A stretch of 64,000 nt of DNA, from the NCBI RefSeq assembly GCF_036785885.1, contig NC_092329.1, positions 8,866,001-8,930,000 on the forward strand, given 5' to 3'. A program made the position numbers and the translations under genes. The number at the start of each line of letters is the position of its first letter. Within the stretch, counting starts at the first letter, position 1. This document shows, one piece after another, positions 4,776 to 50,883 of the stretch. The stretch comes from Coffea arabica. Its lineage: Eukaryota > Streptophyta > Magnoliopsida > Gentianales > Rubiaceae. The notes beneath the pieces were generated by a model. The model made no database searches. It was given only the letters and a program-made list of their open reading frames with translations, and had not been told where the DNA came from.

Positions 4776-5803
4776 TTACAACTCATACCTATGACCTTAA
4801 TTACGTTGATGGGAAATTAATTAAAGAACAAACAGTATACGTGTCTCATCTTGTCTTTGGTTATTATCGAAAGTCCTGAACAAGAATTGACATGACTAAA
4901 AGAGGGATGATTTGGTTCTCAGTTATTACCAGTCTTCGTCGGAAGAAGGAGGAGGGAATGCATGAGAATTGGCTTTTATCGAGCAAAGACATTATGGTGG
5001 CCGACAAAGTTGTAACTTCTAAGACCAACCCCCTCTACAACTAGCGAACCTCAATGGAGCTGGCCCCCTTCCATCTTCCAACTGATCAATTTGACTATGC
5101 ATGCTTTCTATTTTGCTGCCACAAACACAAATGAAACTTTTTATTATCTACTAAATCTCTACACGAGTGTGTTTGGTTGTGTCAAATCTGAGATGTGATT
5201 TTTGTGGCCAGATCAGGTTTGGCTTTATTGGTGGGGAGAAATAATTGGCTATGCTATGATAATAATGCATCGAGGCAACTCATAACTCAAGAATGATTAT
5301 TTTTCGCTATTTGGCTGTGATTTTTGTTAAAAAAAAAAAAATTTAGCTTTTTTTGTTAATATATATTTTTAATTATTTTTATCTCATATATATCAAATCG
5401 TTATAATATTTTTTTTTACAAATATTCGTAAAAATAGCAATTCAAACCATAGTACAGAGCATGCTCATAATCAATTTTTCTTAACTTGTTTATGTAAAAG
5501 AAGAGTACATTTCGTGCTTCGCAATAATAATTGGCTCGTACGTTTTTTTGGCTAGGCGTCTAACAACTTCTGATACCTTAGAAGATGATTAGATGAGGAT
5601 TATTTAATTTATTAGGAGCACTAGCTCAGCCTACTTGCGAGTGAGAGCAATTGGCTGTCCAACTGCTGTGAAACACGTAAATTGACAGTGGTTTCTAGAA
5701 GATAGTGCATCTGTACCATGCAACGTAAGGGCTATTAGAAAACCACAATGGTTAAAACAGATCAAAGGAATAAAGAATCCAGCATTCTAGCAAAAGTGGC
5801 CTT

Positions 5804-5939
5804 GCTTGGATTGCTGTTTTCCGTAGAAAAATTTCGTCATTTTCCGTGAACACATTTCCCTATTACCTTTTTTCCTCACATACATCAAATCGCTACAGTA
5901 ATTTTTCCATGAAAAATGACAGAAAATGCAATCCAAACG
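5804..5939. mobile_element. Short MITE, TTTGGATTG/CAATCCAAA type
   Basis: About 136 bp beginning gcttggattgctg and ending gcaatccaaac, giving short inverted ends, with a conserved core (ccgtgaacaca, then atacatcaaatcgctacag). The same layout recurs at 7772-7934, 24445-24590, 30536-30680, 36373-36515 and 58312-58460, and more weakly at 3890-4020 and 5285-5450. Confidence 0.6.
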
Positions 5940-6525
5940 GGACCTAATATTTCTTTCATTTCCATTCATGCATTAGCCTCAATTTCTTATAGTTTCCTAG
6001 TTTTAGTTTTCTTCCTTCTTTTGAACAAAATTTTAAGCATTGGCAGATGCATGGGAAGGAATAAGCAAGAAACGAGAGGGTAAGAAGAAAGGAGATGGTG
6101 AAGACGAATCTACTGCCAAGTACCCAGAACAGTACCGAACAAAAACTCTTCTTCTCCAGTACGTTTTTTGTAGTGATCAAATAAATAGATGAATGATACT
6201 TGCAAAACAAAAAAAAAAAAATTTAACCAATTAAATAGTTCTACAAGAGAATCTCTTGACATCAAAACTACCAGAAGCAAGCTTCAAAGGACTGGGCTGC
6301 ATCTACAAACTGCGTTTGGTCATTGTGGAAACAGTAAATTGGAGGGAAAGAAAGTCTCTGCAAAACTTGGGAATCATTTGTCATGGTATGCTCAATTGAA
6401 TTGTCTTCGTACACTTCAAAGTCTTGAGTCTCTTGACTACGATTATAAGATCACCGCATTGATAATATGAAAAATCCAAAAACTGCATGCGATGCCAACA
6501 ATCTTAACATGACATAAGTATGCAG

Positions 6526-11405: not shown

Positions 11406-12634
11406 AAGAAAGAGGAAGAACAGAGCACCGAGAGAGATGAAGATACATGAAGGGGCAGCATGAGTACATTTGGTGCTACGCAATAACAATTGGCTCGTAC
11501 GTTGTATTTGCTAGGTGTCTAACGATTTACTTCTGATACCTCAGACGATGAAGATGAAGATAATTTAATTTATTGGGAGCACTAACTCTGCTTGCCTGTG
11601 AGAGCAATTAGTTGTTCAACTGCTGTGAAACACATAAATTAAACTGACGGTGGTTTTTAGAAGATAGTGAAAATGTATCATGCAACGTAAGGTCTATTAG
11701 TAGTAAACCAAAATGATTAAAAGAGAAAAAAGAAATAAAGAATCTAGCATTCTGGCAAAAAGCCTAATTCTTCTTGACTTTTTATTCTTCTACCTATATA
11801 GTAAAGCACGAATGGCTTTGTTGAAGGTAGTGGTTGTTGTGTTGATGTAGCAGCATTTTATTGGCTGGAGTTTGGTCATCATTCACGTGAGCCTCGCGTG
11901 GTTTCGCCAGGAGGAGGAGTGGGAATTCTTGCTGTTGTCCGAGAAGAAGCAAGTGAGAACCTTCGGTTTTTGAGAAGAAGCCGTTTCTCTGTAGCGTGAG
12001 TACCATTTGTCTGGTCAACAGCTTGCTAGCTGAGTGAGCTTATGTATGACGTTGGTGATGGTTTGATTGATGACAAGTGTTGGCTGATGGGCTCAATGTG
12101 TGGTATGATTTGACGATATTGCCCTTCTTTTAAAATCAAATGTACCGTTGTATCTTGCTGAGGTTCTTCTTTGTCTTTGCGATTTGGTGAGAAGAGTTTC
12201 AGCTCTGCTCTAGAGAGCTACCAAAAAACGCCTTTTTTGCTCTTTCCTTTGATTGACAAGACTGAAAACTCTTTGTTTCTCTTATGTATGCAGAGGTTGC
12301 TACGTTTCTGGTGCCGCCTTTTCCAGGTACCGTCATCATGATCCGCGGTAGCTGTGCCTCATTTTTTTTCATTGTTGTTTTCTTCTTCTCCTGCTGCTTG
12401 CTTCTTGGTTCTGAGCTATAGCCTCGTTTCTTTTTCCTACTTTTTCTTTTCTTAGTAAGATTTGGTGTCTTGCTGCCTTTTTGCATAAGGTTTGATTCCG
12501 CTATTATTTTTTATTTTGAGCTCCTTGCAAGCGCCTTGCCTGCATTGTCGTGCTTATTTGGTTCTTTTCCCCCTAAATTTTATGCCCTCTTCAGCTGTTA
12601 CTGTTGCATTGCCTGTTTGCTTTGCTTTGCGTCT

Positions 12635-12837
12635 CATTTTTGCTTCTTCTTTTGTTTCTCATAGGGTCTATTTCACTTTTATTTCTGCCAAACCCTTTTG
12701 GACTGTGTTTTCCATTTTCCTCCTGTCAGCAATATCTCATTTTTGCTTCTTCATTTATTTCTCATGGGGTCTATTTAAATTTGGTTTTTTACCAAAGCAT
12801 TTTGAACTGTGTTTTTCATTTTCCTCCTGTCAGCAAT
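12635..12837 (+). repeat. Two imperfect tandem units of about 100 bp in the Helitron 5' region
   Basis: Each unit runs from catttttgcttctt through gggtctattt and gaactgtgttt to cctcctgtcagcaat. The region is pyrimidine-rich and probably part of a long leader or intron. Open frames across it are hydrophobic by composition only and I do not call them genes. Confidence 0.75.
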
Positions 12838-13284
12838 CCTTGTATCACTGTGTTTTTTTGCCTTGTGCTTTTTGTCCTGCTTTTCCTTGTTATGTTCAGG
12901 TTATCTTTCCCCGTCTCCTGTTTAATGCTTTTCCCCTTTTCCCTTTAATTTCCTTATACTTTTTCCCACTTTGCTCTCTGGTCCTTGTTCTACCGCATTT
13001 ATTTACTCTTTGTTAATGCATCTCCTTAACCTTTTTCCCTCTTGCTGTTTTATTGGATACAGGATCTGGTGCTGCCCTCTTCTCTATTGCTCTACTGTTG
13101 GCTGATAAAGGCTTGTTATATATCGCTAAGGTTAAGGTGACATTACTTATTCTCCCTTCTATATGTCCTTTTGGCTTGCTCTTGGCCAATAACCGTTTGA
13201 TGCATGCTTTTGTTACCTCTCTTTAAATGTTACCAGCTTCACTCGGACTTTTACCTGCTTTTTACTTGTCTGCTCTGTTCCAAG

Positions 13285-13470
13285 GTGCTGTGTAAGAGCT
13301 ATGCTTTAGCTTTCCTTCACTATGCTTCTTTTTTGTATATTTACCCAGTTCCATGTGTGCTGTGTAAGAACTGTAATTTAACTTTTCTTTACTCTGCTTT
13401 CCTTGGTATACCTACTCAGCTTCATGTTGCTGTGTGGGAGCTGCGATTTAGCTTTTCTTTCCTCTGTTTT
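13285..13470 (+). repeat. Three imperfect tandem units of about 71 bp in the Helitron 5' region
   Basis: Units begin near 13287, 13358 and 13429 with variants of gctgtgtaagagct followed by ttagcttttctt and end with cagcttcatg-like wording. They lie just before the Rep coding part. Function unknown. Confidence 0.65.
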
Positions 13471-13629
13471 TAAATTATTATTTGAAAAGATGTATTTGAT
13501 GCATGTCTCTGTTGTGCCATTTGCTTGTGTTACAATTTTGCTTGAACTTTGGCCTCCTTTGTGCTTATTTAGTTAGGCCTATGGTGGTGTATTAGAGGTA
13601 TACATTAGACTTTCTTTTCGCCTGCTAAA

Positions 13630-16600
13630 GTGTGTAGCGATCAGATGGATAGGAATACTGTACGGCGCAAAAAATATGCAGAAATACCGCCTCTGAAGAA
13701 AGCAGAGTTTCTGCGCTCTCGAAGGCAAGCTCGAGCTGCAAAGAAAACTGAAAAAACTTTAGTTCCACATGTTCGCAAGGTCCCGTTAGGATATGTGGAA
13801 ACTGGTGTGTCGTTCCCAAATACTCATCATATGCCATGTCATAGTGGCGGTCCTGCGCCTGTGCATTCTCAGGCGTTGGGAAGCACAGATGTTGTGCTTC
13901 CAACTGATAATGCCTTTGCGATTAGTGAGGGATTAGAATTCATGTCGCACCGTCCACCTGGTTCCTTTAGTGGTCATGCTTCCTCCTCACAATCTGTGAA
14001 CAATGCACATTCTGAAGTTATACTTGCCTCATTTCCTTTGAACTCATCTATTATAAACTCTGAACGATCAGGCCAAAAAGAACTTGCTTGTAAAACTAAT
14101 TCTTTGTCTGCTGGAATTTCGGATCCCACTTTAGAACCTCCTTCCACAGGTACTGCCTTGCCTTAGCATACTCACTCTGTTTGCGAAATTGCTGAGCTAC
14201 TTCAGCCACGCTATAAGCAATGAATAATTAGCTTTATAGCCTGGTTTCTGAAAACCTTCTTCTTTTGTTAGCCATGTCCCTTTAAGGGACTTTTGGCTCC
14301 TTCAGCTATCTTATTTACTTCTGCAATTCGCAGACATCTTTCCTCCTTGCAGAAGGGAGGCTGCCAGGTGTAGCCCAACACCTGGTTGCTTGAAAAAAAA
14401 AAAAGAAAAGTAGTTCCTTCTGCTGATCCATTTATAAGTCGGCCTCGCTCGAAAAAATGCACCACTCCTGAATCTGTAAACAAACAGACCTTAGGTTGGA
14501 ATTTACTCCTAATTTGGTTTAGCCATTGCTTGCTTTATATTCTGATTCATCCATCTGGCCAGTCACGTCTAATAGAGTCATTCGTGTGTGAAATATAACT
14601 GCAGCGGTAAAGCGAACAGCTGCACGTTCAAACATATCTCGTCTTGCCAATATTCCTGACGCACCTCTGATTCTGCCTGATGCTCCTAATTGTGAGCATT
14701 GTGGAGCGAAAATGTTCCACTTGGAACCTCTTTCCTTTTGCTGCTCGGAGGGAGAAATCTCTATCGTTGCTCCTCCAATGCCTTACGATTTGAAGCGTTT
14801 GTTCATTGGCAATGATGAAGAGCGTAATCAATTCAGAAACAATGTTCGCACTTATAACAACAACCTTGGCTTTACATCTTTTGCCGCGAAATATGACTCC
14901 GAATTAACAAACAACGCAAAATGTGTCTATATCTTCCGTGTTCAAGGTCAAGTTTACCACTTTCTTGATGGTCTTATTCAGTTGGGCGATAGACCATTTG
15001 GGATCCAGCTATATTTTTTTGACACTGATGAGGAATTAACAAAGAGGCTTGGTAATTCTGATAAGCTGCGCGAAAGCACTTTGAAATTGCTTATGCGCGT
15101 TCTTTCCAGCAATCCTTATGCTCGCTTCTTTAAGGGCCTTAGGGATGTTCCGAACCTTGACAATCTGAACATCATCCTTAATTGTTATCCTTCACTTGAC
15201 CAGCGAATATATAATCTTCCCTCCACCTCGCAAGTTGCAGCTATATGGACTGAGAGTGAAGATCAGTCATTCGATAGACGTGCTCATATTCAGGTTTATT
15301 CTCGCTCAGCTGGTAGCCATAGAATTCAACATTACTATGGCTGTTACGACGCTTTACAGTACCCTCTAATTAAAAGGATTTGCAAAAGGAAGAGAGGAGG
15401 GGATGCTTGTGAGGATGAGATTAACATTGATCCAGCTTCAGTTAGCTCCTCATCGAAGTTAATTAATTTAGAACAGAGAGGCGAGTACATTTCTCTCTTG
15501 TTATAAACTACTGAATCTACCCATTGCATTACATCATCTAATCATATTGAGCGTATTTTCCTTCTTTATAGCTGCTGATCGAGGAAAAACAGAGGAAGAT
15601 ACTGTATCTGCTAGAGAGTATTACTGTTATAGGTTCCAAATAAGGGACGATGATGAGTCAATGTTGTTACACATTCTTAGGTTGCTGCAGCAATTTTCGG
15701 TTGATGCTTACGCCAAAATTGAAACATGTAGGCTTGACTTTCATAGGCATCGGCAAACCAGGATACGTTCTGAAATTCTACAAGGAGTTCTTGACAGTGT
15801 TTCTGTTGGCCAAACTGCTGCTTCTAAGGTTGGTCGCAAGGTCATTCTTCCAACTTCTTTTATAGGTGGTCCGAGAGATATGAGGCGTCGTTACCTTAAT
15901 GCGATGGCACTGGTATAAAAATACGAAAAATTAGATATTTTCCTTACAAAGACGTGTAATCCAGCATGGAAGGAAATACAAGAGAATTTGAAATACCATG
16001 AAAAGCCTCAGGATCGGTCGGACCTTCTCGCTAGAGTTTTTAGGGCCAAATTCGAAATGCTTAAAGCAGAAATTCTGAATAAGAAAATCTTTGGCAAATT
16101 TACAGCGTGTGTCTACGTGATCGAGTTTCAAAAGCGAGGCTTTCCTCATGCCCATTTATTATTGATCGTAAAACCTGGTCATAAACTACTTAATCCAGAG
16201 TCGTATGACAAAATAGTTTGTGCTGAGTTGCCCGACAAAGATCGATATCCTCACTTATATTCTCTTGTTGTGAAGCATATGATCCATGGTCCTTGTGGAG
16301 CCATACTCTTAAGCTTGTGAAATACTTGTATAAGTATGTTTTCAAAGGACACGATCAGGTGAGCTTTAAGATTATATTGTGTGAATCAGTCGATGATATT
16401 GATGAAAAAAAAGACTTCCAAAAAGATAGATGGGTTTCACCTCCGGAAGCTTTTTGGTGCATTTATGAATTTAGACTCAATGAAATGACCCCAGCAATTT
16501 ACACTTTCCAAGTTCACCTTCCGGACCAGCAATTCATTTCATTTGACAAGAACTTTGACTTGGTGCAATTACTGAGTAAAATTGACTTTTCTAAGACAAT

Positions 16601-18766
16601 GTTAACTCAGTTTTTCCACATGAATAGAACAAATCCTAGGGCACAGAATCTGAAATGCTTGTACAGAGATTTCCCTAAACATTTTGTTTGGTTTACTAAA
16701 TATAAAGAGTGGACTGAAAGAAAGCATCGAAAGGTGATTGGTAGGATAGTGATTGTTAGTCCAAAAGAATGAGAGAGGTATTATTTGAGGTTGCTTTTGA
16801 CTCACATTGCTGGCCCGACCTCTTTTGAAGACCTTTTGACTGTTAATGACCAGAGATTAGCTTCGTTTAGAGAAGCTGCTTTGGTCCTCGGCCTTCTGCA
16901 GTCCGATGCGTATATAGACGAGACGCTACAGGAAGCAGTAGCATTCCAGATGCCATCCTCATTGAGGTTATTGTTTGCCACTCTCCTTGTGTATTGTTCT
17001 CCGACAGATCCTAGATCATTTTAGGAAAAGTTTGAACCTGAGCTTTGTGCTGACTATCATTACGAGTAGCCATTTGATGCCCTTTCTTCTCCTGAAATTA
17101 GAAGAAAAGTTTGCAAGATATTAACACCTCACTAGAACAAATGGGCAAAAGCATTGCTGATTTTCACTTTGTCTCTGATGAACTTTCACCTGGTTACACT
17201 GAGAGGTTGACAAAAGAGATTGAAAGTAAAAGGAACTTAGTAGTACCACCCGATGATCTGTTGTTGCCTCAGATGTTGAATTCTAACCAAAAACTTGCCT
17301 ATGATCTAATCATAAAAGCATGTTCTTCCTTAGAAGGCCAAGCATTTTTCGTTGATGACTTTGGCGGCACCGATAAAACATTCTTGTACCGGGCACTTCT
17401 CGCAACTTTGCGATCACAGAACCATGTTGCACTTGCAGTTGCAACATTTGGAATTGCAGCATCGATCCTTCCTGGCGTAAGGACGGCTCACTCGAGATTC
17501 AAGATACCACTTGATTTCTCAAAAACTAAGAGTTGTCAGCTTAGTAAACAGAGCTCTGCTGCAAAACTCATTTCTGAATCTAAGCTTATTTTGTGGGATG
17601 AGGCTTCGATGGCTAAGCGGGACACAATTGAAGCATTTGACAAGTTGCTGAAAGATTTAATGGACTCTGATTTGCCATTTGGAGGAAAGGTAATAGTTTT
17701 TTGTGGAGATTTTCGGTAGACTCTACCTGTCATTGAGCAAGCAACTAAAGAAGTCCTCATAGGGTCGACCTTCCCTGTTTCTCCTTTGTGGCCTAAACTA
17801 TATAAAATCATACTCACAGAAAATATGCGAGCTATGCTTGATCCAGGATTTTCACAATTTCTTTTAAGAGTAGGAGAGGGAAGGGAGCCTGTTGATGGTG
17901 AAGGTGAAATAAATTTATCATCGGATATAGTTATTCCTTATTACGATAAAGAGGAGTCTTTAAACAGGTTAGCTAGCTACATATAACCAAGTTTAGTGTC
18001 TTTTTAATAGTTACTCCTCCTATTTCCATTTTCAATGAACTTTCTTTTACACAGGTTAATAGAAAGCGTCTTTCCAGATTTGAACCTCTATTCGCAGGAT
18101 CCTTATAACCTGATAAATAGGTGCATCCTTGTTCCTAAAAATAGCTCAGTTGATGAGCTCAATGAAATAATGATTAGGAGATTTCCTGGAACCCTTCAAA
18201 CTTATATTAGCTTGGACAAGACTGTTGATCAACGACACCAAGGCGATTATGAGGACTTCCTCAATTTTCAGAATCCTAAAGGTCTCCCTCCTCATAAGTT
18301 GCTGTTGAAGGAAAACTGTCTGCTAATGCTTCTAAGAAATTTAAATCCAGCTGAAGGTCTATGCAATAGCATAAGGTTAATATGTCGAGAACTTGGTCAG
18401 CACACAATTTCTGCAGAGATTGTTTTTGGCCATCATCGAGGCAAAAGAGTTTTTATTTCAAGGATACCTCTTCAAACGCCTGACAATGACAAAAATGAGA
18501 TTGCATTCATGAGACTGCAGTTTCCTGTCCGCCTTTGCTTCGCTTTGACCATCAATAAATCACAGGGTTAAACTGTTGACTACGTTGGCATCTATCTAAG
18601 AGAACCAATTTTTTCTCACGGCCAGTTGTATGTTGCTCTGTCCAGAGCTAAGACCGCTACCAAAGTTAAAATTCTTCTGGTTCCTGGAACATTTGATGGC
18701 ACAAACGTAGATTGCAAAACTCGCAATATTGTCTTTGATGAAAGTTTTAGATTAGCTCAGGCCTAA
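13630..18766 (+). pseudogene. Helitron Rep/helicase, disrupted
   Basis: Coding pieces in order: a basic N-terminal exon (13630-14166), further exons and a Cys-type segment CEHCGAKMFH before 14712, a segment with IYNLPSTSQVAAIW and YDALQYPL (to 15480), Helitron_like_N core (15573-16320) with RLLQQFSVDAYAK and the HUH motif PHAH (16147-16155), the Tyr motif KYLYKYVFKG (from 16320), then PIF1-type helicase: Walker A region 17354-17380, WDEASM, VIVFCGDFR, and the C-terminal TINKSQG / [14 protein letters not shown]. It would nick DNA and unwind it during rolling-circle transposition. Lesions: stops at 15916, 16770, 17022, 17717 and 18569, a frameshift near 16290, a second between 17024 and 17111, loss of about 70 residues between HGPCG and the Tyr motif, and Walker A GGTGKT changed to GGTDKT. 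One intron (about 17970-18053) splices ESLNR to LIESVFP. Certain family, clearly inactive. Confidence 0.93.
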
Positions 18767-18888
18767 ACAATTTTCTACTTGAATTATGCTAAAGTAAGAT
18801 GCTTATGCAGATTTGTTTTTGTTAGATTGCTTTGTTCTTGGATCTTTTAGTTCTTGCTCATTTATCCATCGACTTATGTGGTTATAGG

Positions 18889-21196
18889 ATGGCTAACTTG
18901 CTGCCAATGCGAGATATTATGCCTCACATGAAAAATTAGAGCTGCATCATCACTGTTCAGGAAAAGCAACAGATCACAAGCTCAATGGGAACACCGACAA
19001 GAAAGCAGAAATTTGTTTTCTATGATTCAGAGGTTAGTCAAAGCCACTGTTCGGTCTTAGATGTAATTGTTTAAACGCACTATTCTTTTGCTTTATTAAT
19101 CCTGTATTAATTTTATCTCTTTAAGTAGGGATCAAGAGTCGAAGGAATCATCTTCAATGATGACATTCCTAGAATGAGCCAGATCTTGCAAGTTTTTAAA
19201 AAATATAGAATCTCCAATGCTGAGGTCAGACCTATACCGTCAAAATTTCAGACATCTGAGCTTACCGTTCAATGGGTTATCAGCAGCAGGACTGTTATTG
19301 ACGAAATTGCTGATGATGATGAAGTCATGCCTGTAAAATTCTGCTATTCAAAGTTTACTGACTTAGTTCAACACATGGATGACAAAACTAGATCAGTGGG
19401 TGAGTCTTTCAATGCTTTACTCTTAATGTGTTTGCATTCTGAAAAAAGTTCTTTACGATCACTTTCTCTGTATTGTTCTTAGACATGCTGGGAGTTGTGA
19501 TCAGCGCGCTTGAGAGGAAAACAGTTATCAAGAACTCAAGGCAATCAGATGTTCAGAAATTTGTCCTGCTTAACGAAGAGTAAGAGTTTTAAGCTTCAGT
19601 TTAGGCAAAAGTTCACGCTGCCTTTTCTTTTTTTCCTCTGCAGTTACTTTTTCCAATCTCTAACTGTTACCTCTTATCACGAACACATATCACAGCCGGT
19701 GTTATTGTCTCTATGGGATAGTTTCCTGGCTAATGAGGGACAGGAAATTGTATCTAAACTTCACAACTATCCTGTGATCATTGCTCACAGAATCAAAGTG
19801 AACAACTATAATGATTTGTTCCCATTTTATTTTTTGAGATTTTTACCGTTTACCTTTTGTATTCGTCTGCAGCACCTGTAAAGACCTGTTCCATTTCTTT
19901 TCGTCATATAGGGGTCGCACTTGGTACTTGGTTTGATTCAGCTATTCTTGTTGATCCACCTGTACAAGAAACAAGAGAACTCAAAAACTAGTACATTCTA
20001 TTTTCAGTCATCGTCCTTTGCACAATTTAGATCTAAATGCTGTCCTAACTTTCAGTCCTGATATTCTTTATGTTCCTTTCACCCAAGGCATTGAGGAACA
20101 CTAAGTTGATTAAAGAGATTGTCAAAAAAAAAGGACTATATTAAATATAATCCACAGCTGTCCTTAAAATCAGACCAGAAAACCACCTGGATTTGGAACA
20201 TAACTTCATTGCAAAAGGTTTAGGAGTGAAACATGCTGCCCTGCTTTCATACTTTTGTCATGCATGATCATCTTTTTATACTCATAGTTGCTCATCTTTT
20301 AGATTATATGGGTGAAGGCACAGTTCTTTTTTGAACACATCTTCCAGAAGTATTGGTACATGTGCTGTAAAAATTGTTGTCGATCTACAGCAGCAAACTA
20401 CCAAATTGAGTTTACCTGTAACTCAAGCAAAGAGAGACACCCTGCAGTGCCTAGGTGCTAAATATTCTGTTTGTAATATATTCATTTCTGTTAATTGTTT
20501 TGTAATACTTGTTCACATTAAAAAAGTCACTTGTTGCATATTGTGTACCTATTTTCAGATGCCACTTTGATGTTGATTTGACCGATGACACCAGTATGAT
20601 ACCAGCTTCAATTTTTGGCGAATTAGCAGAGAACCTACTGACGTTTAGTGCACTGGAAGTAATGCAGCATTTTAATTAGGCTCTTACTCCTAAATCTTGC
20701 TAATAAAGGTATTCTATACTTTTTACTCTTACTTTTCGTTCTCTCAACAGAATGTTGAACTTCCCCTCGAGTTTGTCCACAAGGAGCTTAAATCAAAGAT
20801 GTTTCTACTTCACATCAAACCTGTGCAAACACAGCTGGCAGATGCAAGGCAGCGCTACACAATTATATACTACTCTGAAATTAATGATGATGTCGATTCT
20901 GTCCGGTTAACAAGTGAACCAAAAGATGGCTCTCTCTTTCCTGGCAAAGAATCTGACACTATACAGCTCGCGACTCCAGGTAACTCACAAATATCTGCTT
21001 TTTTAGTTCTGCATTTATATTTTACTCCAGATAAATAATATGACAAATCAAAAAAAATATGGTCACAGGAGAGAATAGTGCTCGTTCAAAGGTTTGTGTT
21101 CGGCTTTCTGAAAGGTTTGATGGACCACAAAGCACTGAAGCAAATGAGGATGAAAATGCAGAGTGCAGCTCTACCAAGAAGCAAAAAATCAACTGA
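18889..21196 (+). pseudogene. RPA1-like single-strand DNA-binding protein of the Helitron, disrupted
   Basis: The piece MRDIMPHMKN followed by VQEKQQ, then GTPTRKQKFVFYDSE, and in the next exon (from about 19129) GSRVEGIIFNDDIP, is the first OB fold of plant RPA70-like proteins. Later exons give a second OB fold (to about 19990), a zinc-ribbon OB fold near 20345-20640 (YMCCKNCC .. FTC, then FDVDLTDDTS .. FGELAENLL), and the C-terminal RYTIIYYSEIN segment, ending at TGA 21194. Many plant Helitrons carry such a gene, presumably to coat the displaced strand. TAG at 18937-18939 replaces the conserved Trp of HMKNW (TGG to TAG), and further stops near 19990 and 20150 suggest decay. Exon borders are only partly certain. 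Confidence 0.8.
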
Positions 21197-22104
21197 CTTG
21201 TTACTGTTGGGTCTTTTGTCCACCTAATTCTTAGGTTCTATGGCTAACATGCTATCGCATATTTTTGCAAAGTTCCTTGTGCATTCCTAGAAGGATCATT
21301 GATGTATTAATGAAACATGTGCTTTTGTTCATGGATACCCCTTAGACTGGTTTCAATCTGGCACCTTTTACGTTTGCTGATAACTTGCAATCAGCACCAG
21401 CTATGTATTTGAATTGATGGTTTATAACTATTATGTGCTTGTTACAGTATCCTTTAAATTTACTTTCTACTCTATTCAGCTCATTAACTGACCTTTTACT
21501 GAATGCGCTAGCTGTTATACACCAAATTTTGTAGAATACCTTTATCAGAACCTATTCAAATTTTCTCCTGCAGATAACTCTCTTACTAAATATCATACCT
21601 GTTATTATGAGTCTCTCTTACTCTGTTCACCAGCTCAAATTTCGTGTATCTATTAGCCTTAAATTGTGTAGTTGTGCAGCCTTCAATTCGTTTGCAAAAA
21701 CACAACTTTTTTCCTCAGACAGAACTGTGTATACCCTTACTTGGTTTGAAACACAGTAGATAAAATAGATGCACAGTGGTAGCAATCACTGGACTTTCTC
21801 TGCATTCACTTCTTTTATTATTAACCAGTTATGCATCTTTGATGTGCCAGATCATTAATGCCCTTAACTGTGAAAAAATAAACGCCAGCTTAACTATAAA
21901 GAAATTCATTTTTAAAAAAATTATTAGCCATCAATTGTTTATATATAACTACTTCTTGAATAAATCATACATCCCAACAAAGCACTATAAGTTAAGTTTC
22001 GTACTTGCTTCTCTCAAATTATCCCTAGCCTTCAGTTGTTTTCTTTGCCTTCATATAATTACATCTTTGATGTTTTTCTTTAATTAGCTTGTCCAATTAG
22101 ATCA

Positions 22105-23177
22105 ATGGCGGAAGGTTCATCTACTTATGGATTAACAAATACCAGCTCAATCGCTTGTTGTTTTCTACTGAAATGCAATCACAGAGGAGAGGTCTAATTT
22201 TCTTCTTTGTGATGGAAAATATTTGTTAACGCTGTGCAGTCCAGTTATATAACTTCATTTGACATTTCCTATTTTCCACTCCTGAAACGCAGATTCTGCC
22301 TGCTGAATTCAGGCTATTGCTTACTCAGCACCAACGCAACAGAGTCATTCTCAGGCATGGAATTTATAAATGGCCTGTTGTGGTCGGTGAGCGTTCATTT
22401 GAACAAGGCTGGGATGAATATTGCCGTGAAAACATTACTAACAGACATGATATGTTGCTTCTCCGGCATACCGGCAATCTCATATTTGATGACGTCCATT
22501 TTTCCAAGCTGCAAAAACAGGTTTACCTGTCTTGGACAGCGCCATTGCCAAATTTATTGCAGGCCGGTACTAATCATGCATAAGGCCAGTTTACCCTTAC
22601 CTTTATATCTGCTACTTGTAGCAAAATTGTCTCTAATTTATTATCTGCTAAATAACTTCAGATTGTGCAGATTCTATGATAATTCCACAGTGGGTTGCTT
22701 CATCAGCGAAGCCAGATTTAACCCAAACTCTCACTGATTCGGTTTCCTTCTATCAAACCTTTAATACAGCAACCCCAAACACATTGGTAACCTATCCTTG
22801 CACTATTTCTTTTCCCTCTCTCACTGCATTCCTTTAAACCAAATCTATATATTCTGTTCTCGGATCTTACTTTCGTTCTTTTCTATTAGAAAATCCCAAG
22901 ATTCGTCGATCACTCTGTTAATGGACGCAGAACTCCAATGCTTCTTATTAGGACTGGAGAGAAACTTACACAGGTTGGTGTGAAAGGAAAAAAACTAAAA
23001 GCAAATTGGAGAAGCTTCGCTCTTCAGCATCAGTTGCAGCACAATGACATCCTTGTCTTCATTCCAGAATCATCAACTACCTTCATAGTTTTAGTATTTG
23101 ATGATAATGGAGTCGAGAGAGTCTTTCCATTGTCTTGCATTTTCAAAGTTTATTCTAATTGTCATGGTTGTACGTAA
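22105..23177 (+). CDS. Two-B3-domain protein carried by the Helitron
   Basis: I assemble four exons with GT-AG borders and a continuous frame: 22105-22191, 22293-22566, 22671-22786, 22890-23177, giving 254 residues. B3 domain 1 (about residues 30-105) has ILPAEF, then YKWPVVV, SFEQGWDEYCRENI, DMLLLRHTGNLIFDDVHF. B3 domain 2 (about 160-240) has KIPRFV, TPMLLIRTGEK, NWRSFALQHQLQHNDILVF, FIVLVFDDNGVE. This is the plant REM-type B3 plan: strand pattern, W..F and L..(G)D.L.F, so a sequence-specific DNA-binding role in the nucleus is likely. No acidic or other effector domain is seen. The gene lies on the same strand as Rep and RPA, about 900 bases before the Helitron 3' hairpin. All exons are open, unlike its two neighbours. 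It may be a captured host gene or a standing Helitron gene; I do not know of B3 as a usual Helitron domain. Exon joins are inferred, not proven. Confidence 0.78.
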
Positions 23178-24045
23178 CTTCTGTAGTATGCCTTTCTCTA
23201 TAAACTAAATTTGCTTTTCTCTTGAAGCTCTTCATCGCACATTGTTCCAATTTTTTATTTCATTGAAGCGCATTCCGACTCAATATGGCTGCATTTCAAT
23301 GAAATCAAGCATGCAGCAAGTACATTACAAATACCTAACATCTATTATTGCTGCTCCTTTTTCCCACATAATCAATAATTAATCAGTAACTAATTTCATA
23401 TAAATGGCCTGTTATGGCATGAAAATCAAGTACACTAAGCATTCCACCTTTCTATTTATCAAATGGTTATTTGATTCTCCAATCAATAAACTTCAGTCAG
23501 GGAACATTTCCATTGACTGTGGTGATAGATTGTTGCATAGAGAATCCTTACTTCATACCATGCATCGCACTTCCATTCTCCTGTCCAGAGTTGTCGCGTT
23601 AGTTGTTCCAATTTTCATGTTACGTACAAAGAATTGAATAAACAATATACAAACATTTGAACAACATCAAAATTAATGCTTGTTGTAAATTTATAACCAA
23701 CACAGACAAATCAATCCTCCATAGAATAATAGAAAAATTAATAGTGTTTACTCATTGTTTAATATTTTAAAACCTCCCATTTACTTCTCTGGACACTTCG
23801 TCCCATCTCTACATGAAGCAAAATCATACTCATGAGCTTCAATTTTATTTGTCTCAATTGTTTTCTTTTCGTCCTTTTTCTCAACACCATGTTAAATTCA
23901 AACATTAATTTACTTGCGTTCTCTTACGACATTGCTTTTTAAAAAAACTTAATCATTTTATAACCAAATAGCTTAAATGCAATGCATCCGATTTATGATA
24001 TCTCCACTCGAAAATCGGGGCATTTTCTGGGTAACATGAAATTAA

Positions 24046-24076
24046 CACTGCGCATCGTGCGGTGATCCCCTCCTAG
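24046..24076 (+). other. Helitron 3' terminus
   Basis: Stem cactgcgc, loop atc, stem gtgcggtg form an 8-bp hairpin (two G-T pairs) at 24046-24064. After atcccctc the element closes with CTAG at 24073-24076 and the host resumes with T. This is the classic Helitron replication terminator. Confidence 0.92.
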
Positions 24077-24164
24077 TAATTATAACAAGGTGTTGACTGA
24101 TCTTGTACTTCCTATCGAATTTTGAGATTGACATCTGAGGTAAAGTGACATTGGAATTGGGCCT

Positions 24165-24390
24165 ATCTTCTTTCATTTCCTTTCATGCACTAGCCTCAAT
24201 TTCTTATAGCTTTCTTTATTCTTTTTTCTCCCTTTTTACAAAATGTAAAGCATAGAGAGGAGGGAAGGAATAAGCAAGAAAGGAAAGGGGAAGAAGAATG
24301 GAGATGGCGAAGATGAAACTGCTATGTACCCAAAACAAAGAATAAAAAATCTTTTCCTCCAGTGCGCTATTTGTAGTCAAATAATTTTAA
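24165..24390. repeat. Truncated third unit of the local duplication
   Basis: Matches 5947-6210 in order: catgcactagcctcaatttc, ggaaggaataagcaagaaa, gaagaatggagatggcgaag, ctccagtgcgctatttgtag. It shows that the Helitron went into or near the junction of tandem units. Confidence 0.75.
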
Positions 24391-28902: not shown

Positions 28903-29118
28903 GCGAACGAACCAATGTTTCGCGAACCAATGTGACGGATACCCACATTCTCTATAGGCAGGTTACGATTTGATAATTTTTTTTTTTTTTCAGAACTCTT
29001 AAACTCCAATTTGGGTCATGAAATTGTCCCGTGGTTTAGCTCTGAAGTTAACAAGAATTCAAAGGCAATATGCCCATTTATCGCGCCTCATGTGCGGTAG
29101 ATTATTGCTTTTTTGAAA

Positions 29119-30259
29119 GGAAAAATCTTCCAAAACGTCCCTCACATTTTGTAAAATAACTTTTTTCGTCCCTCACTTTTAAAAGTATAATTTTATGTCC
29201 CTTATATATTCACATCGGTCAAATTTAGTCCCTAACTAGGTTTCCGATCATTTTTTGGCAGGAATCCATCATGTGCAAGGCACGTGATCATTTTTGAAGG
29301 GTAAATTTGTTAAATTATATTTTACATAATCTGATCTATAGTCCTCCACATTTTATAAAATAAATTTTTTCGTCTCTCACATTTTATAAAATGATTTTTT
29401 TCATCCCTCACATTTCACAAAATGAATTTCTCCATCCCTCACATTTCAAAAAATGAATTTTTCATTTCTCACTAATTATGTGTGTGAATACATTTTTTTT
29501 AAACACATGTATATGTCTATTTGATTTTGCTTAATAATAATAGCATAAACACATGTATGTAATTGGGCCCAACTTGTGGGCTATCTTCTCTTTTTGTATG
29601 ATTATGACTAATATTTACCAATAGAACCTTAATTTGCATATTCTTATTGTATTTTGACCGAAAATAGCTTTATTGGCCAACTTGACAATGAATGCAAGAT
29701 TTTTTACTAGCTAATACCAGATGAAATCAAATGATCACGTATAATATATGGTATTCGTATTGCTAAGTGAAATCAAATAGACACATACATATATTTATGC
29801 TATTCGTATTATTAAACAAAATCAAGTAGACATATACATGTATTTAAACAAAATGTATTCACACACATAATTTTTTTTTTAGGGTTTCCCTCACACACAT
29901 AATTAGTGAGGGATGGAAATATTCATTTTTTGAAATGTGAGGGATGGAGAAATTCATTTTGTGAAATGTGAGGGATGAAAAAATCATTTTATAAAATGTG
30001 AGGGACGAAAAAATTTGTTTTATAAAATGTGGAGGACTATAGATTAGATTATGTAAAATATAATTTGACAAATTTACCCTTTAAAAATGATCACGTGCCT
30101 TGCACATGATGGATTCCGGCCAAAAAATGATTGGAAACCTAGTTAGGAACTAAATTTGACCGATGTGAATATGTAAGGGACATAAAATTACACTTTTAAA
30201 AGTGAGGGACGAAAAAAGTCATTTTATAACATGTGAGGGACGTTTTGGACAATTTTTCC
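29119..30259. mobile_element. Mutator-like foldback element (1141 bp)
   Basis: Ends GGAAAAATC and GGAAAAATT inverted; arms of about 380 bp pair along their length (ccaaaacgtccctcac, gatcacgtgccttgcac, catccctcacatttc). The 9-bp sequence TTTTTGAAA flanks both ends exactly (29110-29118, 30260-30268). Each arm also holds a short tandem array of about 35-bp units (ccctcacatttcacaaaatg). Non-coding. Confidence 0.87.
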
Positions 30260-33200
30260 TTTTTGAAATGGTCACGCAATTAGACAATGACGCGAATTAA
30301 ATTGCCTACCTTTTCAGTCTTAAAAATTGGGTCATTCCTCATACCTACATCCAACTGCACTTATTCTTTTTTTTTTTTTTTTGAATTTTATGAAGTGTTG
30401 TTTCCAATTCCACAAGTTAACTTTTACAGTATTCTTTGATCTTATTTCAGAGGGGAAGCATATGGTTAATTTAATTCAATAGACAAAAACGTACCATAAT
30501 CTAAAACAATTAGCTAATTAAAATTTTGAAGTAAACTTGGACTGTGGCTTTCTACAGAAAAATTTTTATATTTTTCGTGAACAAACTTTTCAATCATGTT
30601 TTTACCTAGCGTACATTAAATTATTATAATATATTTTTATATAATTTTTTTAAAAAAATAGCAATCCAAACAGAACGACTTGTGAAAGGACTAACAACCA
30701 TGAAAGAAGTCATCATGAAGGGAGGCAAGATATTAATGGTTTCAGACAAGCATGCGATCGTTTTCGTATCATTCACAACCGGAGTTTCTCAAGATGGAAA
30801 TGGGATCAACGGGCACACTTGGGGCATTCAAGAGTGGGATTTGAGTTGGCCTCCATCTCAAAAACAGTCCCTCCATACGAGTGTTGCAAAAGAAGATGGT
30901 TTATGCCATACGAGTTTGGCATGGATGCCACATGATATTAGAGAGAAAAGCTAACAAAATATTTGTATCTAATTTGGCTTATTCGGTGTTTCAAAATTTG
31001 ATTTGAGTTTAGTTATTTGTGAATTATGTTTTGTCTCTTGTTACAGTAATTGATTTCTCAAGAGTCAGGTTAATTTCTTTTTAGGATGCTTTTCTAATTT
31101 GGATTTGCTCTCCATCAATAGTGTCATTATTTAAGAGTTGGATCCTCTTTTTGCTCTAAATCAATCCCCCTATTGATAATAACCCAAGTAATTCAAGTTC
31201 GAAGAGCCAAACGACGCATTAAAGAAAGGATAAATCTTTCGTACAGTAGCAAGGTTAGATACATATCATATATGCAAAACTTATAGTTGACATTTAAACT
31301 TTGAATATATATCATGCATCTATTGTCGTTAGTGTATACACTGTCACTATAGAAAAGATTAATCGTAAAGAGATAAATCTTTTCTAGATTTAAAGAGTTT
31401 TCCTGTTATTAGGTTTAGAGTTTAAATTATAAGCCCGAGAAAGGGCTCCTAAGGTTTCTAGAATCTTTTCGTTTTTAGATTCAAAGTTTGAATTATGAGC
31501 GTTAATCAAAGTCTTTGACAGAGAAAAATATGCTGAGAAAAGGAGTCGATCAGCTCATTCTCATTCTATCGTCTCTCATTCACGGTCTATATGTTTTTTC
31601 AGTCACAAAATTGAGCCTAATGTAGTCAAATTAAGGGCTAAAATTGCATAAATTTTGGGAATAATTGGGATCGAAAAAAAATCAAGAATACCTTTCCCAC
31701 AATTACAGGTTGCATATTATATCTCCATGCCGATGAGTTGTCTTGACCTGCTTATGCTATGAGACATTTTGACGAATATTTATGATGTGGAAAAATGGCT
31801 GTGATCGTTACCGGAAATACAAGTAATTAGTATATGCTTGTTTTGATTGTGATGATAGCGTTTGGGTCTTGATAGTTTTTATACTTTTTGTGTACTCCTA
31901 AAATTTGTCAACATTAAGGCATCTATAGCTGACTGGCTTCGGCAACGACTCAATTTTTAGCCATTCGTTAGCTATCTTAACAGGGACAATTTAGTCATTT
32001 CATTGATTTTTGCTTTTAGCCAATTGATTCTCGAATTTCTAGTTTGACCAGTCTTAAGGGGGATAACCTGTGTACTAAAGAGGTAAAGTGAGATTAACCC
32101 CATGATTCCGGGGGCCAAAGTGCCTTTCATCCTCTTTTTTATTTTATTTTATTCGAGTCGTACATAATCAAATTTGGGAGACGGTGATAAATGACTGCGT
32201 ACTAAGGATGCGTTTGATAAAATTAAAATCTGAAATTTGAAATCTAAAGTCTGAATTCATTAAGTTATTGAGCTGTTAAGTACTAAATCTAATACATTTG
32301 AGTATATATTATATTAAATGATAAGTGAATAGGTTATTACTTACTATTAGGAGTAAACTTTACCCAAAACATTCAGTGCCACTTAATTAATTTAAATATT
32401 TAATTTTTAGTTATCATACGTAAAATCTGAATTCATTAATTTTAGGAGTAAATTTTTTATACACTGACAGTGTATATACTATCACCCGTTTAATTCATAA
32501 CATGTGTACAAAAATTGAATTTCAAATTCAAATTTTACATAATTGTCTTTCATATAACGCGCTGTCAGTGTAGGAAAGATTAATCCTAATTTTAATTATT
32601 GAATTTAATTATCAAACAAGGCCTAAACATCATACAAGCAGCGGGGCTTGATCCGTTAGTTTCACTTTCACCTTCAAATTCATTAATTCAATAATGTTAG
32701 GTGTGGACTTCCATTGCACTGTGTCCGCTAGAAACTTAACCAAATAGCGCGTTGTGGGTCAACTACCAACCAATCAATGCAAAATACGAAAAGAAATCCA
32801 GCAATATGCATGATTAAACTAATGCAATATTGCTAACTATTATCTAAAATATGCCCATAAAGTTAACCTTAATTAATTCGCCATGATTCCAACATAATCC
32901 ACTTATCTAGCATTGTTGAATCCCAAAAAAAGAAATAGTATACACAAAATAACAATGCAAAAAAAGCTCCACTACTTGTCAAAACATACACATCCAGCAT
33001 AATTGCATTCTATTATAAAAATTACTTATAAAAATATTATTTACTAGCATCTCAAACACATTTTACAATGCAGTTCTCAATTTTTTCAATCACTTTTTTA
33101 TTTTATATATATCATATAATAAAAAATACTATAGTTATTATTTTAAATGTTACATAAAAATATTAACCCTCTCGATAGTAGCGTAATTAATTCGCTTCTC

Positions 33201-48292: not shown

Positions 48293-50883
48293 GGGATAAT
48301 TTCATAAACCTCCCCTGAGATTTTATGAACTATCACCTAGCTCCCTTGAGGTTTTCAAAATCTCACTTAGCACCCCTTGAATTGATATTTTGGTAACATT
48401 GGAAGCCTTCTAACCAAAAGTAATATTAAAAAATTCATGTTTGAGGAGAGAGATTATTTTAGTGCCTTTAATACCCTTAGGCTATAAAAAAACAAACATT
48501 TTACAAACCAAGGAAAAAAAGTACTAAATTGGAACCATCTTAAAAGTGAGGAGATAAAAAATTGGTAAGATTTTATGTTACTGCCAATAATCACTTCTAC
48601 AGTAGGAAAAGATAGTAAAAACAAATATCATTTTTTAAATCATTTCTACAAATAGAACCCTTCATAGCATTGAAGGTAATTAGCATATAAAATAATACAT
48701 TTGAGCAAAAAAAAAAACTTAGTAATAGATGAAATTCAACTTTAATATCATACAAAAAATTTACTCAAAATAGACAGAGTTTTTTTATGGGTGTGAAATA
48801 TGAAAATTTTATTATAGAAAAGGGATAATTTCAGAAACCTCCCCTGAGGTTTCTGACATTTACACTCACCTCCCCTGTGGTTTGAACAATTACACTGACC
48901 TCCCCTGAGGTTACTAATCATTTACAAATTCAGTCCAAATGATTAAAATATTATTTTAGAGAGTGAAATTAGAATTTTGTACCTGATTTGTCATTTGTGC
49001 TACATGTCCAATGAATGACAAAGTATTACAAATTAATTAATAATTAATAAACTTAAGGAGCGTAGTTTATAGGTAAATACATATTACTTATTTAAAGTAC
49101 CAACTCTTTACGGATATTTTACTTTCAAACATTTACTTTATTACAAATATTTATTCTCAAATACAGATTTGTATTTCCTCTCAAATATTTAAATTTTGTT
49201 AAATAAAAAACCTACCAGTTTTTCTTCCGTAGAAATATTAATATAACACTTTTTCAATTTTAGTTATAAATATTTATGTATTTAGCATAAATTAAATGAT
49301 TCAGGATAAAATACTCATAAAGAGCTAATACTTTACTTATGTAATGGATGAAAATCATAAAAAATTAATACTTTATGGGCCATTCCTTTTTTTAAAAAAT
49401 ATTTAATTTATATCAAATAGATAACCTACTGATTTTCTTTTTGTGAGAATATTACTGTAACACTTTTTAATTTTTAATTACAAACGTTAATATATTTATC
49501 ATAAATTAAATATTTGAAAATAAAATATCTGTAAAGAGCGGGTACTTTAAATAGGTTATGTGTATTTGCCTATAAACTACACTCCTTACTTAAATCAATA
49601 AACTACACTCCTTACTTAAATCAATAAACTATACTCCTTACTTTAAAGAGTATAGTTTATAGGCAAATACACATAACCTATTTAAAGTACCGATTCTTTA
49701 CAGATATTTTATTTTCAAATATTTAATTTATGATAAATATATTAACGTTTGTAATTAAAAATTAAAAAGTGTTACAGTAATATTCTTGCAAAAAGAAAAT
49801 CAGTAGGTTATCTATTTAATATAAATTAAATATTTTTTAAAAAAAGAAATGGCCGATAAAGTATTAATTTTTTAAGATTTTCATCCATTACATGAGTAAA
49901 GTATTAGCTCTTTATGAGTATTTTATCCTGAATCATTTAATTTATGTTAAATACATAAATATTTATAACTAAAATTGAAAAAGTGTTATATTAATATTTC
50001 TATGGAAGAAAAATTGGTAGGTTTTGTATTTAAATAAATTAAATATTTGAGAGTAAATACAAATCTGTATTTGAGAATAAATATTTGTAATAAAGTAAAT
50101 GTTTGAAAGTAAAATACTCGTAAAGAGTTGGTATTTTAAATAAGTAATACGTATTTGCCTATAAACTACACTCCTTAAAGTTTATTAATTATTAATTAAT
50201 TTGTAATACTTTGTCATTCATTGGACATGTAGCACAAAGGACAAATCAGGTACAAAATTCTAATTTCACTCTCTAAAACAATATTTTAATCATTTGGACT
50301 AAATTTGTAAAGGATTAGTAACCTCGGGGGAGGTCAGTGTATTTGTTCAAACCACAGGGGAGGTTAGTGTAAATGTCAGAAACCTCAAGGGAGGTTTCTG
50401 AAATTATCCCTATAGAAAAAGTCAGAATTTGAAAAACTATTTGAAGTTTCAATTATTTTATTTCTCTTGCGCTCTACATGAATAGGAATAAAAAAATAGA
50501 TAAATAAATAAAGTTGTGAAATACCAAAAAAGGGAAAAAAATAAAAAGAACCTGCAGCTAGTCTTCTCCAAATGCATTGAATATTTCATTGATCAAATTC
50601 TATATTTAATTGATATTTGCAATTCAATTATACATACATACATATACATACATATATATGTATGTATGTTTGTATAGACATTGTTAAAGAAAAGTAGGAA
50701 GTTTAGAGAAAGAAAAACAAGTTCAGAAAATTTAAATATGAGGGTATTATTGACAATTCATCACCTTTAATATTAGTATACGGCCCTACTATCACTTCAA
50801 GGGTGCTAAGTGAGATTTTGAAAAGTTTAGGGGAGCTAGGTGATACTTCATGAAACCTCAAGGGAGGTTTCTGAAATTATCCC
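48293..50883. mobile_element. Outer Mutator-like foldback element
   Basis: Begins GGGATAATTTCATAAACC and ends with the inverse GGTTTCTGAAATTATCCC. The next bases in from each end, ctagctcccttgagg and gggagctaggtgat, also pair. Flanks ttaatgttg and ttaatattt agree at 7 of 9 bases. It is interrupted by a second member of the family at 48822-50410, leaving about 1.0 kb of its own. Confidence 0.82.
48822..50410. mobile_element. Inner Mutator-like foldback element (1589 bp), near-complete hairpin
   Basis: Ends GGGATAATTTCAGAAACC and its inverse; exact 9-bp duplication TATAGAAAA (48813-48821, 50411-50419). Arms pair from the tips (cacctcccctgtggtttg) through cctataaactacactcc to the centre near 49600-49640, so nearly all of the element can fold. 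A 27-base unit (caataaactacactccttacttaaat) is tandemly repeated near the centre. Non-coding. Confidence 0.9.

Follow-up and report, generated by a model that had tools for sequence, protein, structure and literature searches.

A gene for two B3 domains is, with high probability, a standing accessory gene of a large clade of Coffea Helitrons, and one of REM-type origin. It was located in the window, by which we mean the whole stretch of 64,000 nucleotides of Coffea arabica that was analysed, within a Helitron that carries a decayed Rep/helicase and a decayed RPA-like region upstream of it. The preliminary description of this DNA had left a choice between a whole host gene captured together with its introns and a B3 protein that is a standing part of the Helitron lineage. 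The latter is borne out by many dispersed copies, their four exons, a fixed place at the 3' end, constraint on the protein and association with one Rep clade.

The Helitron of the window and its B3 gene

The features of the element and its flanks are, in window coordinates:

11462..11760, + strand: left flank, belonging to a locally duplicated unit (counterpart in copy A of the unit at 5503-5795)
11785..24076, + strand: whole Helitron, 12,292 bp, with A at 11784 before it and T at 24077 after it
14592..18766, + strand: decayed Rep/helicase (Helitron_like_N, PIF1 and Pif1_2B; Pfam)
19129..21190 (limits approximate), + strand: RPA-like region, decayed, several exons; its 3' part is present in 14 of 17 close copies
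22105..22191, + strand: B3 exon 1, with the start codon and the first strand of B3 domain 1 (family alignment)
22293..22584, + strand: B3 exon 2, remainder of B3 domain 1 (18-copy alignment; end moved from 22566)
22581..22583, + strand: in-frame TAA of the window copy (codon 126), with a GC splice donor just behind it at 22585
22671..22786, + strand: B3 exon 3, covering the linker plus the first strand of B3 domain 2 (18-copy alignment)
22890..23177, + strand: B3 exon 4, remainder of B3 domain 2 and stop codon (family alignment)
24018..24033, + strand: subterminal box GGGCATTTTCTGGGTA, an 11-bp direct repeat whose second unit is degenerate; candidate B3 or Rep site
24046..24076, + strand: 3' hairpin (24046-24064) and CTCCTAG terminus (window ends, copies compared)
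24164..24384, + strand: right flank, where the duplicated unit resumes (copy A counterpart 5948-6184)

At the 5' side, homology with copy H37 starts at exactly 11785, where the window element begins TTCTTCTACC (a putative 5' TC end) and H37 has an identical start. At the 3' side, 12 of the 17 close copies cease to match at 24077-24078, that is, at CTAG|T. A hairpin stands before this CTRR-type terminus (CACTGCGC-ATC-GTGCGGTG, then ATCCCCTCCTAG) and is a perfect palindrome in several copies. Comparison of the window with itself revealed a duplicated unit, of which copy A pairs with 11462-11760 and then jumps from 11760 to 24164, pairing again with 24164-24384; copy B is thus interrupted by about 12.4 kb. 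The Helitron lies between A and T, and copy A bears an insert of its own at the place of the empty site. Such a hairpin, a CTAG end and insertion between A and T are general features of Helitrons. The insert in copy A is small (window 5796-5947), has TTGGATTGC and GCAATCCAA near its ends and lies near the place equivalent to the Helitron site in copy B. Elsewhere in the window two inverted structures were noted: 48821-50411 is a 1.6 kb inverted self-match, 93.5% identical, which makes it a long palindromic element, and in 29116-30262 two arms of about 0.45-0.48 kb form an inverted repeat, 87% identical and separated by 0.2 kb.

The Rep/helicase matched Helitron_like_N, the HUH-type Rep, with 61.3 and 98.9 bits in two adjoining frames (cut-off 28.9 bits), and was followed by a PIF1-type helicase (Pfam PIF1, 172.6 bits; Pif1_2B, 41.3 bits). 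In copy H53 a single frame of 902 codons joins the Rep and the PIF1 part. Compared with H53, the window Rep/helicase is disabled by six in-frame stops and by two changes of frame, about 0.23 kb being lost at one of the latter, so that the at least seven disabling changes earlier attributed to Rep/helicase and RPA together are reached by the Rep/helicase on its own. It lies upstream of the B3 gene on the same strand, as had been described. The RPA label of the neighbouring region is weakly supported exon by exon: one exon gave a weak match to Rep_fac-A_C (20560-20676, 14.0 bits, below the cut-off of 28.5), and three other RPA-like pieces gave no Pfam profile match when searched exon by exon.

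The B3 gene is situated within the Helitron boundary (22105-23177 in 11785-24076), on the strand of the Rep/helicase and about 0.87 kb ahead of the hairpin and CTAG end (24046-24076). The four GT-AG exons first proposed do give an open frame, of 257 codons with the acceptor at 22661 or 254 with that at 22670, and the spliced protein resembles B3 in two stretches (Pfam, 31.6 bits against a cut-off of 30.1). Single exons scored under this cut-off (13.6 and 21.9 bits), and all six family members compared with the B3 profile matched it, with E values up to 0.01. The claim that the gene is intact, with no disabling change, was contradicted by the family model. The intron 2 donor on which it relied, at 22567, is not conserved, several copies having ATAC, GTGC or TTGG there. 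Among the 18 aligned copies the conserved intron 2 is 22585-22670, with CAAG|GTCAG at 22584/22585 and TGCAG|AT at 22670 kept in most of them. This model places the TAA at 22581-22583 in frame and gives the window a GC donor at 22585, so that the window protein would end after 125 codons unless a cryptic donor were used. The closest relative of the window copy, L033, shares the GC donor and has a stop at another place. The window B3 copy is a decaying member of its family.

Dispersed copies, Rep lineage and purifying selection

A search of the Coffea arabica assembly (1.198 Gb, 131 contigs) with the B3 protein gave at least 232 exon matches, 148 of 894 candidates being scored. When 150 of these matches were merged, at least 90 B3 loci on 22 contigs were obtained, of which 60 had more than one exon match. 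All 17 close copies that were fetched bear the B3 gene, the exon matches listed being 65-89% identical. The four exons were seen in order in 16 of the 17; in L058 exon 4 falls beyond the fetched stretch and was found by the genome search. Similarity to the window begins in the RPA-like part in 14 of the 17, and at 21583 in L037, L038 and L046. At G000:C9:5100212-5144394, 12 B3 matches with two stops each follow one another at a spacing of 3,995-3,996 bp, that is, a tandem array with a B3 pseudogene.

Longer copies carry the complete set of parts. The match to the window extends from 12.27 to 24.08 kb in H36 and, interrupted by gaps before 14 kb, from 12.6 to 24.08 kb in H53; in both it takes in the Rep, the helicase, the RPA-like region, the B3 gene and the end. 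H37 (L064 + L037, C8:44.85 Mb) is without an equivalent of 14563-21583, and thus of the Rep, helicase and RPA-like parts, and retains both ends and an open B3 frame. L038 (C2:9.21 Mb) and L046 (C2:33.24 Mb) have the same junction at 21583 and open B3 frames as well. L037 and L038 are almost identical although they are at distant sites.

With the family exon model all 260 codons are open in 12 of 18 copies, two of which (L043 and L056) have one non-canonical splice base each. P0001, an independent protein from the database, is identical, letter for letter, to the gene model of L074, a locus with Rep 6.6 kb upstream and the hairpin and CTAG downstream. With the family phases, which the splicing script imposed and which are therefore not tested by these copies, a spliced gene was obtained from nine of 12 distant copies; six of the nine are free of stops. 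CTCCTAG|T with the hairpin sequence follows the B3 gene in 16 of 18 close and six of 12 distant copies. Among the close copies, the hairpin arms are damaged in L040 and L043, the tail is lost in L046 and the stretch of L058 is too short; for the other six distant copies no CTCCTAG|T with hairpin was found within the stretch read. A genome search of this kind had been proposed as the check on the two readings, and B3 does recur before a CTAG hairpin in many Helitrons, as expected of a lineage gene. In L120:2290-3500, the Helitron 3' end lies within an open frame of 403 codons whose later part resembles, by eye, a receptor kinase; this element was possibly inserted into or beside a host kinase gene.

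The association with Rep was determined from the matches listed, i.e. 150 of the at least 232 B3 matches and 150 scored Rep matches from 763 candidates. A Rep match was present 4-16 kb upstream on the same strand at 13 of 90 B3 loci, at 6.5-7.9 kb in 12 of these. The controls gave 0 for the downstream side, 0 for the opposite strand and 0, 0, 0, 1 and 1 for five shifts. In a Rep tree of 43 tips (12 fetched B3-linked Reps, H36, H53, the window and 28 unflagged Reps picked by hand), the 15 B3-linked Reps all fall in one clade of 16 tips (support 86). Four further, unflagged Rep lineages were chosen by hand as the next ones in the tree (L108, L115, L116 and L096), and each has a two-B3 gene within the 3-4 kb read downstream of it, encoding a protein 33-45% identical to that of L036; in two of them the hairpin and CTCCTAG|T were found. 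This indicates that the B3 gene is older and more widespread than the first Rep clade implied, the lineages sampled for B3 belonging to one of the two main Rep clades, the second of which has 15 of the 43 tips. Among the Reps sampled, B3-bearing Helitrons form one Rep clade.

The B3 protein is under purifying selection within the Helitron family. Pairwise dN/dS had a median of 0.28 and a range of 0.19-0.50 (96 of 105 pairs, dS > 0.05), calculated from 15 of the 18 close copies, with three of different length dropped and three stop-bearing copies retained. Without the window copy the value was again 0.28 (83 pairs). A codon model gave an omega of 0.22 for 17 open copies and of 0.29 for the 12 close ones among them; as it admits open copies only, it is biased toward constraint. 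Fixing omega at 1 lowered the log-likelihood by 223 (17 copies) and 56 (12 close copies). The model took 12 of 18 close and five of 12 distant copies, the distant ones dropped being three without automatic splicing, three with stops and L072 with a poor first exon. In matched pairs the constraint on B3 (dN/dS 0.19-0.31) was weaker than that on Rep/helicase (0.09-0.21).

A subterminal box and the possible action of the B3 protein

All 24 ends recognised by their hairpin have a GGRCA box, at a distance of 40-91 bp from the CTAG end and in most cases of 48-61 bp; the pattern was defined post hoc, after the ends had been viewed and GGGCA relaxed to GGRCA, on ends that all come from Helitrons with B3. 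A second box at a distance of 10-11 bp occurs in 16 of the 24 ends. The box is single in the other eight, including the window, with GGGTA as its second unit, and the deep lineages L073, L119 and L120. Because close copies share descent, the 24 ends are not independent and the box is to be counted in about six deep lineages. Its spacing corresponds to one helical turn, as would fit either a dimer or a single protein bearing two B3 domains. The box could equally be a site for Rep. With a conserved subterminal box, binding at the end becomes a concrete hypothesis.

The gene very probably descends from an ancient two-B3 gene of REM type that a Helitron captured together with its introns, and it has since been copied alongside the Rep/helicase and the RPA-like gene while purifying selection acted on it. 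The most likely mechanism, which we put forward tentatively, is that of an accessory factor. The protein would use its two B3 domains to bind the DNA of its own element, the putative target being the GGGCA box that lies immediately internal to the 3' hairpin and is often doubled at 10-11 bp. Once bound, it might mark the 3' end for Rep or keep that end accessible.

Somewhat unlikely is an anti-silencing function like that of VANC proteins, in which the B3 protein, being of REM type, would bind noncoding DNA of its own Helitron and block RNA-directed methylation, or compete with the host REM proteins that recruit Pol IV. In the available part of PMC12270911, the Arabidopsis two-B3 proteins VDD, VAL, REM12 and REM13 are described as recruiting CLSY3/4-Pol IV and as binding direct repeats whose 10-bp units are one base apart, and REM8 as binding three AAGCGGAT repeats. 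VANC proteins, according to the portion of PMC10398659 at hand, target repeated motifs in the noncoding parts of their own element. H37, devoid of Rep, helicase and RPA-like parts with its B3 frame open, and L038 and L046, with the same junction and open frames, also fit such a function. Against it, the tandem repeats in the 5' part of the window Helitron (12632-12837 and 13277-13470) are repeats by sequence alone, and word enrichment in the noncoding parts yielded mainly low-complexity words. Counted over whole elements, CATGCA and TGGGCA were near expectation in three full-length ones, and CATGCA was higher in H37.

Less probable still is a role as transcriptional regulator of the Rep and RPA promoters of the element, by which transposition would be timed to reproductive tissue. 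REM genes show preferential expression during the development of flower, ovule and seed, according to the abstract of PMC6821719, and the B3 coding sequence is constrained. The 5' part was scanned for words and tandem repeats, but the conserved noncoding box is at the 3' end, away from Rep.

The accessory-factor reading and its anti-silencing counterpart can be combined in a broader proposal, possible though doubtful, in which a clade of plant Helitrons would have carried out a domestication in reverse, of a host REM regulator, the two-B3 protein at its own GGGCA box (in many ends doubled at 10-11 bp) is an end-recognition or anti-silencing factor, and Helitrons and their hosts pit rival REM proteins against each other over Pol IV silencing. 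The gene may serve as a test case for the finding of Helitron 3' ends or for escape from silencing, since REM proteins guide Pol IV in Arabidopsis (PMC12270911, in the part available).

Probable REM-type origin and comparison with known systems

Introns 1 and 3 of the Helitron gene are in phase 0 and stand directly before the (x)(I/L)PxxF motif of each B3 domain. Of 13 host loci taken as REM-type, a label inferred from sequence as were their exon starts, and three of them homeologous pairs, nine have AG directly before (x)(I/L)PxxF in phase 0. An intron is absent there from L022, a REM-like host locus; L025, L026 and L030, also REM-like, have a compatible frame, their splice bases not being displayed. 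A phase-0 intron before this motif may be a defining feature of REM genes. In single hhalign comparisons with host REM, the Helitron domain 1 gave a probability of 92% (E 5.5e-7) and domain 2 one of 82% (E 1e-5); the two Helitron domains, compared with each other, did not match significantly (probability 1.3%, E 0.039). The B3 fold was recovered for domain 2. Structure models were of low confidence (48.7 for the first and 43.7 for the second, built with more sequences), and no fold of domain 1 was drawn from them. Foldseek with the first model returned no match at E 0.001, and a PDB sequence search with the family alignment returned just At1g16640 (E 0.67) besides two entries attributable to chance. 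No close host source gene was found among the 30 Pfam B3 loci compared, whose best exons are about 30-41% identical. Intron places and profile comparison give good support to an ancient capture, probably of a two-B3 REM-type plant gene with its introns. The earlier idea of host capture thus holds as an ancient origin and fails for a passenger of a single copy.

That ordinary host REM genes stand beside Helitrons by chance is very improbable. UniRef does call P0002 'B3 domain-containing protein REM8-like', but the gene, the RPA-like part and the terminus move together and stop at CTAG|T at different sites, and P0001 is the product of the L074 model with its Rep upstream and its hairpin and CTAG downstream. 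A single recent capture, by which one host REM gene with introns became the passenger of this one Helitron copy, would account for the introns and their agreement with host REM-type places, but can hardly be entertained: it is refuted by the many dispersed copies with their constant place before the end, one Rep clade and purifying selection, and host B3 exons (30 Pfam loci) are at best about 30-41% identical.

In protein databases the full-length window protein had no relative, 0 of 220 candidates passing. A search with the family alignment gave 11 matches, ten of them named, all from Coffea, and the ENA contig P0008; a search with exon 4 gave six, P0014 (Coffea arabica) and the contigs P0008, P0012, P0013, P0015 and P0016. 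The named relatives come from Coffea arabica, C. eugenioides and C. canephora only. As the L075 model includes the whole of P0012 without a mismatch, the contig matches may be coffee DNA, and the B3-Helitron family is claimed within Coffea only. P0001-P0003 are entered as uncharacterized protein, TF-B3 domain-containing protein and REM8-like, names that may inflate coffee REM counts. Given the Helitron B3 genes, some coffee 'REM-like' genes would be transposon genes, to be removed from family counts and expression studies. In the gene model P0004 (Coffea eugenioides), an N-terminus with PF06645, presumably a signal peptidase subunit, is fused to the Helitron B3, and this could be either a real chimeric transcript or an annotation merge.

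The Helitron itself is of a known kind, and as far as the literature was searched its standing B3 gene is a new component: no report of a Helitron-encoded B3 gene was found in open PMC papers, Repbase reports lying outside the search. From a conserved B3/REM gene it would follow that a transcription-factor family of plants is able to turn into a permanent transposon gene, and such a family seems here to have been taken on as a functional component of the element. Maize Helitrons, to go by the title of PMC3288121, captured gene fragments stepwise. The coffee elements resemble them in having host-derived sequence within a Helitron and differ in that one gene has been retained and constrained across a clade. 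In contrast to the host REM family, to which one abstract assigns VRN1, the Helitron B3 gene is transposon-encoded, has at least 232 exon matches in one genome and is about 30-41% identical to the host exons compared. It is comparable to VANC of VANDAL elements, in the part of PMC10398659 available, as an element-encoded accessory protein that possibly binds repeated noncoding motifs of its own element, and unlike VANC it belongs to another element class and another protein family and is known from sequence alone. The closest parallel in composition is with the PHRPA Helitrons of plants (Mothra and relatives), which, in the passages of PMC4683698 available, have a Rep/helicase and an RPA-like gene, the latter being the accessory gene known in plant Helitrons, as well as derivatives without Rep. 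'Transcription factor' occurs 0 times in the text available, the passages of which discuss only RPA and no B3 gene (PMC4683698). The coffee element shares the Rep/helicase, a putative RPA-like gene and the Rep-less derivatives with these Helitrons (PMC4683698, passages available), and differs from them by a gene for two B3 domains that is placed after the RPA-like gene and before the 3' end.
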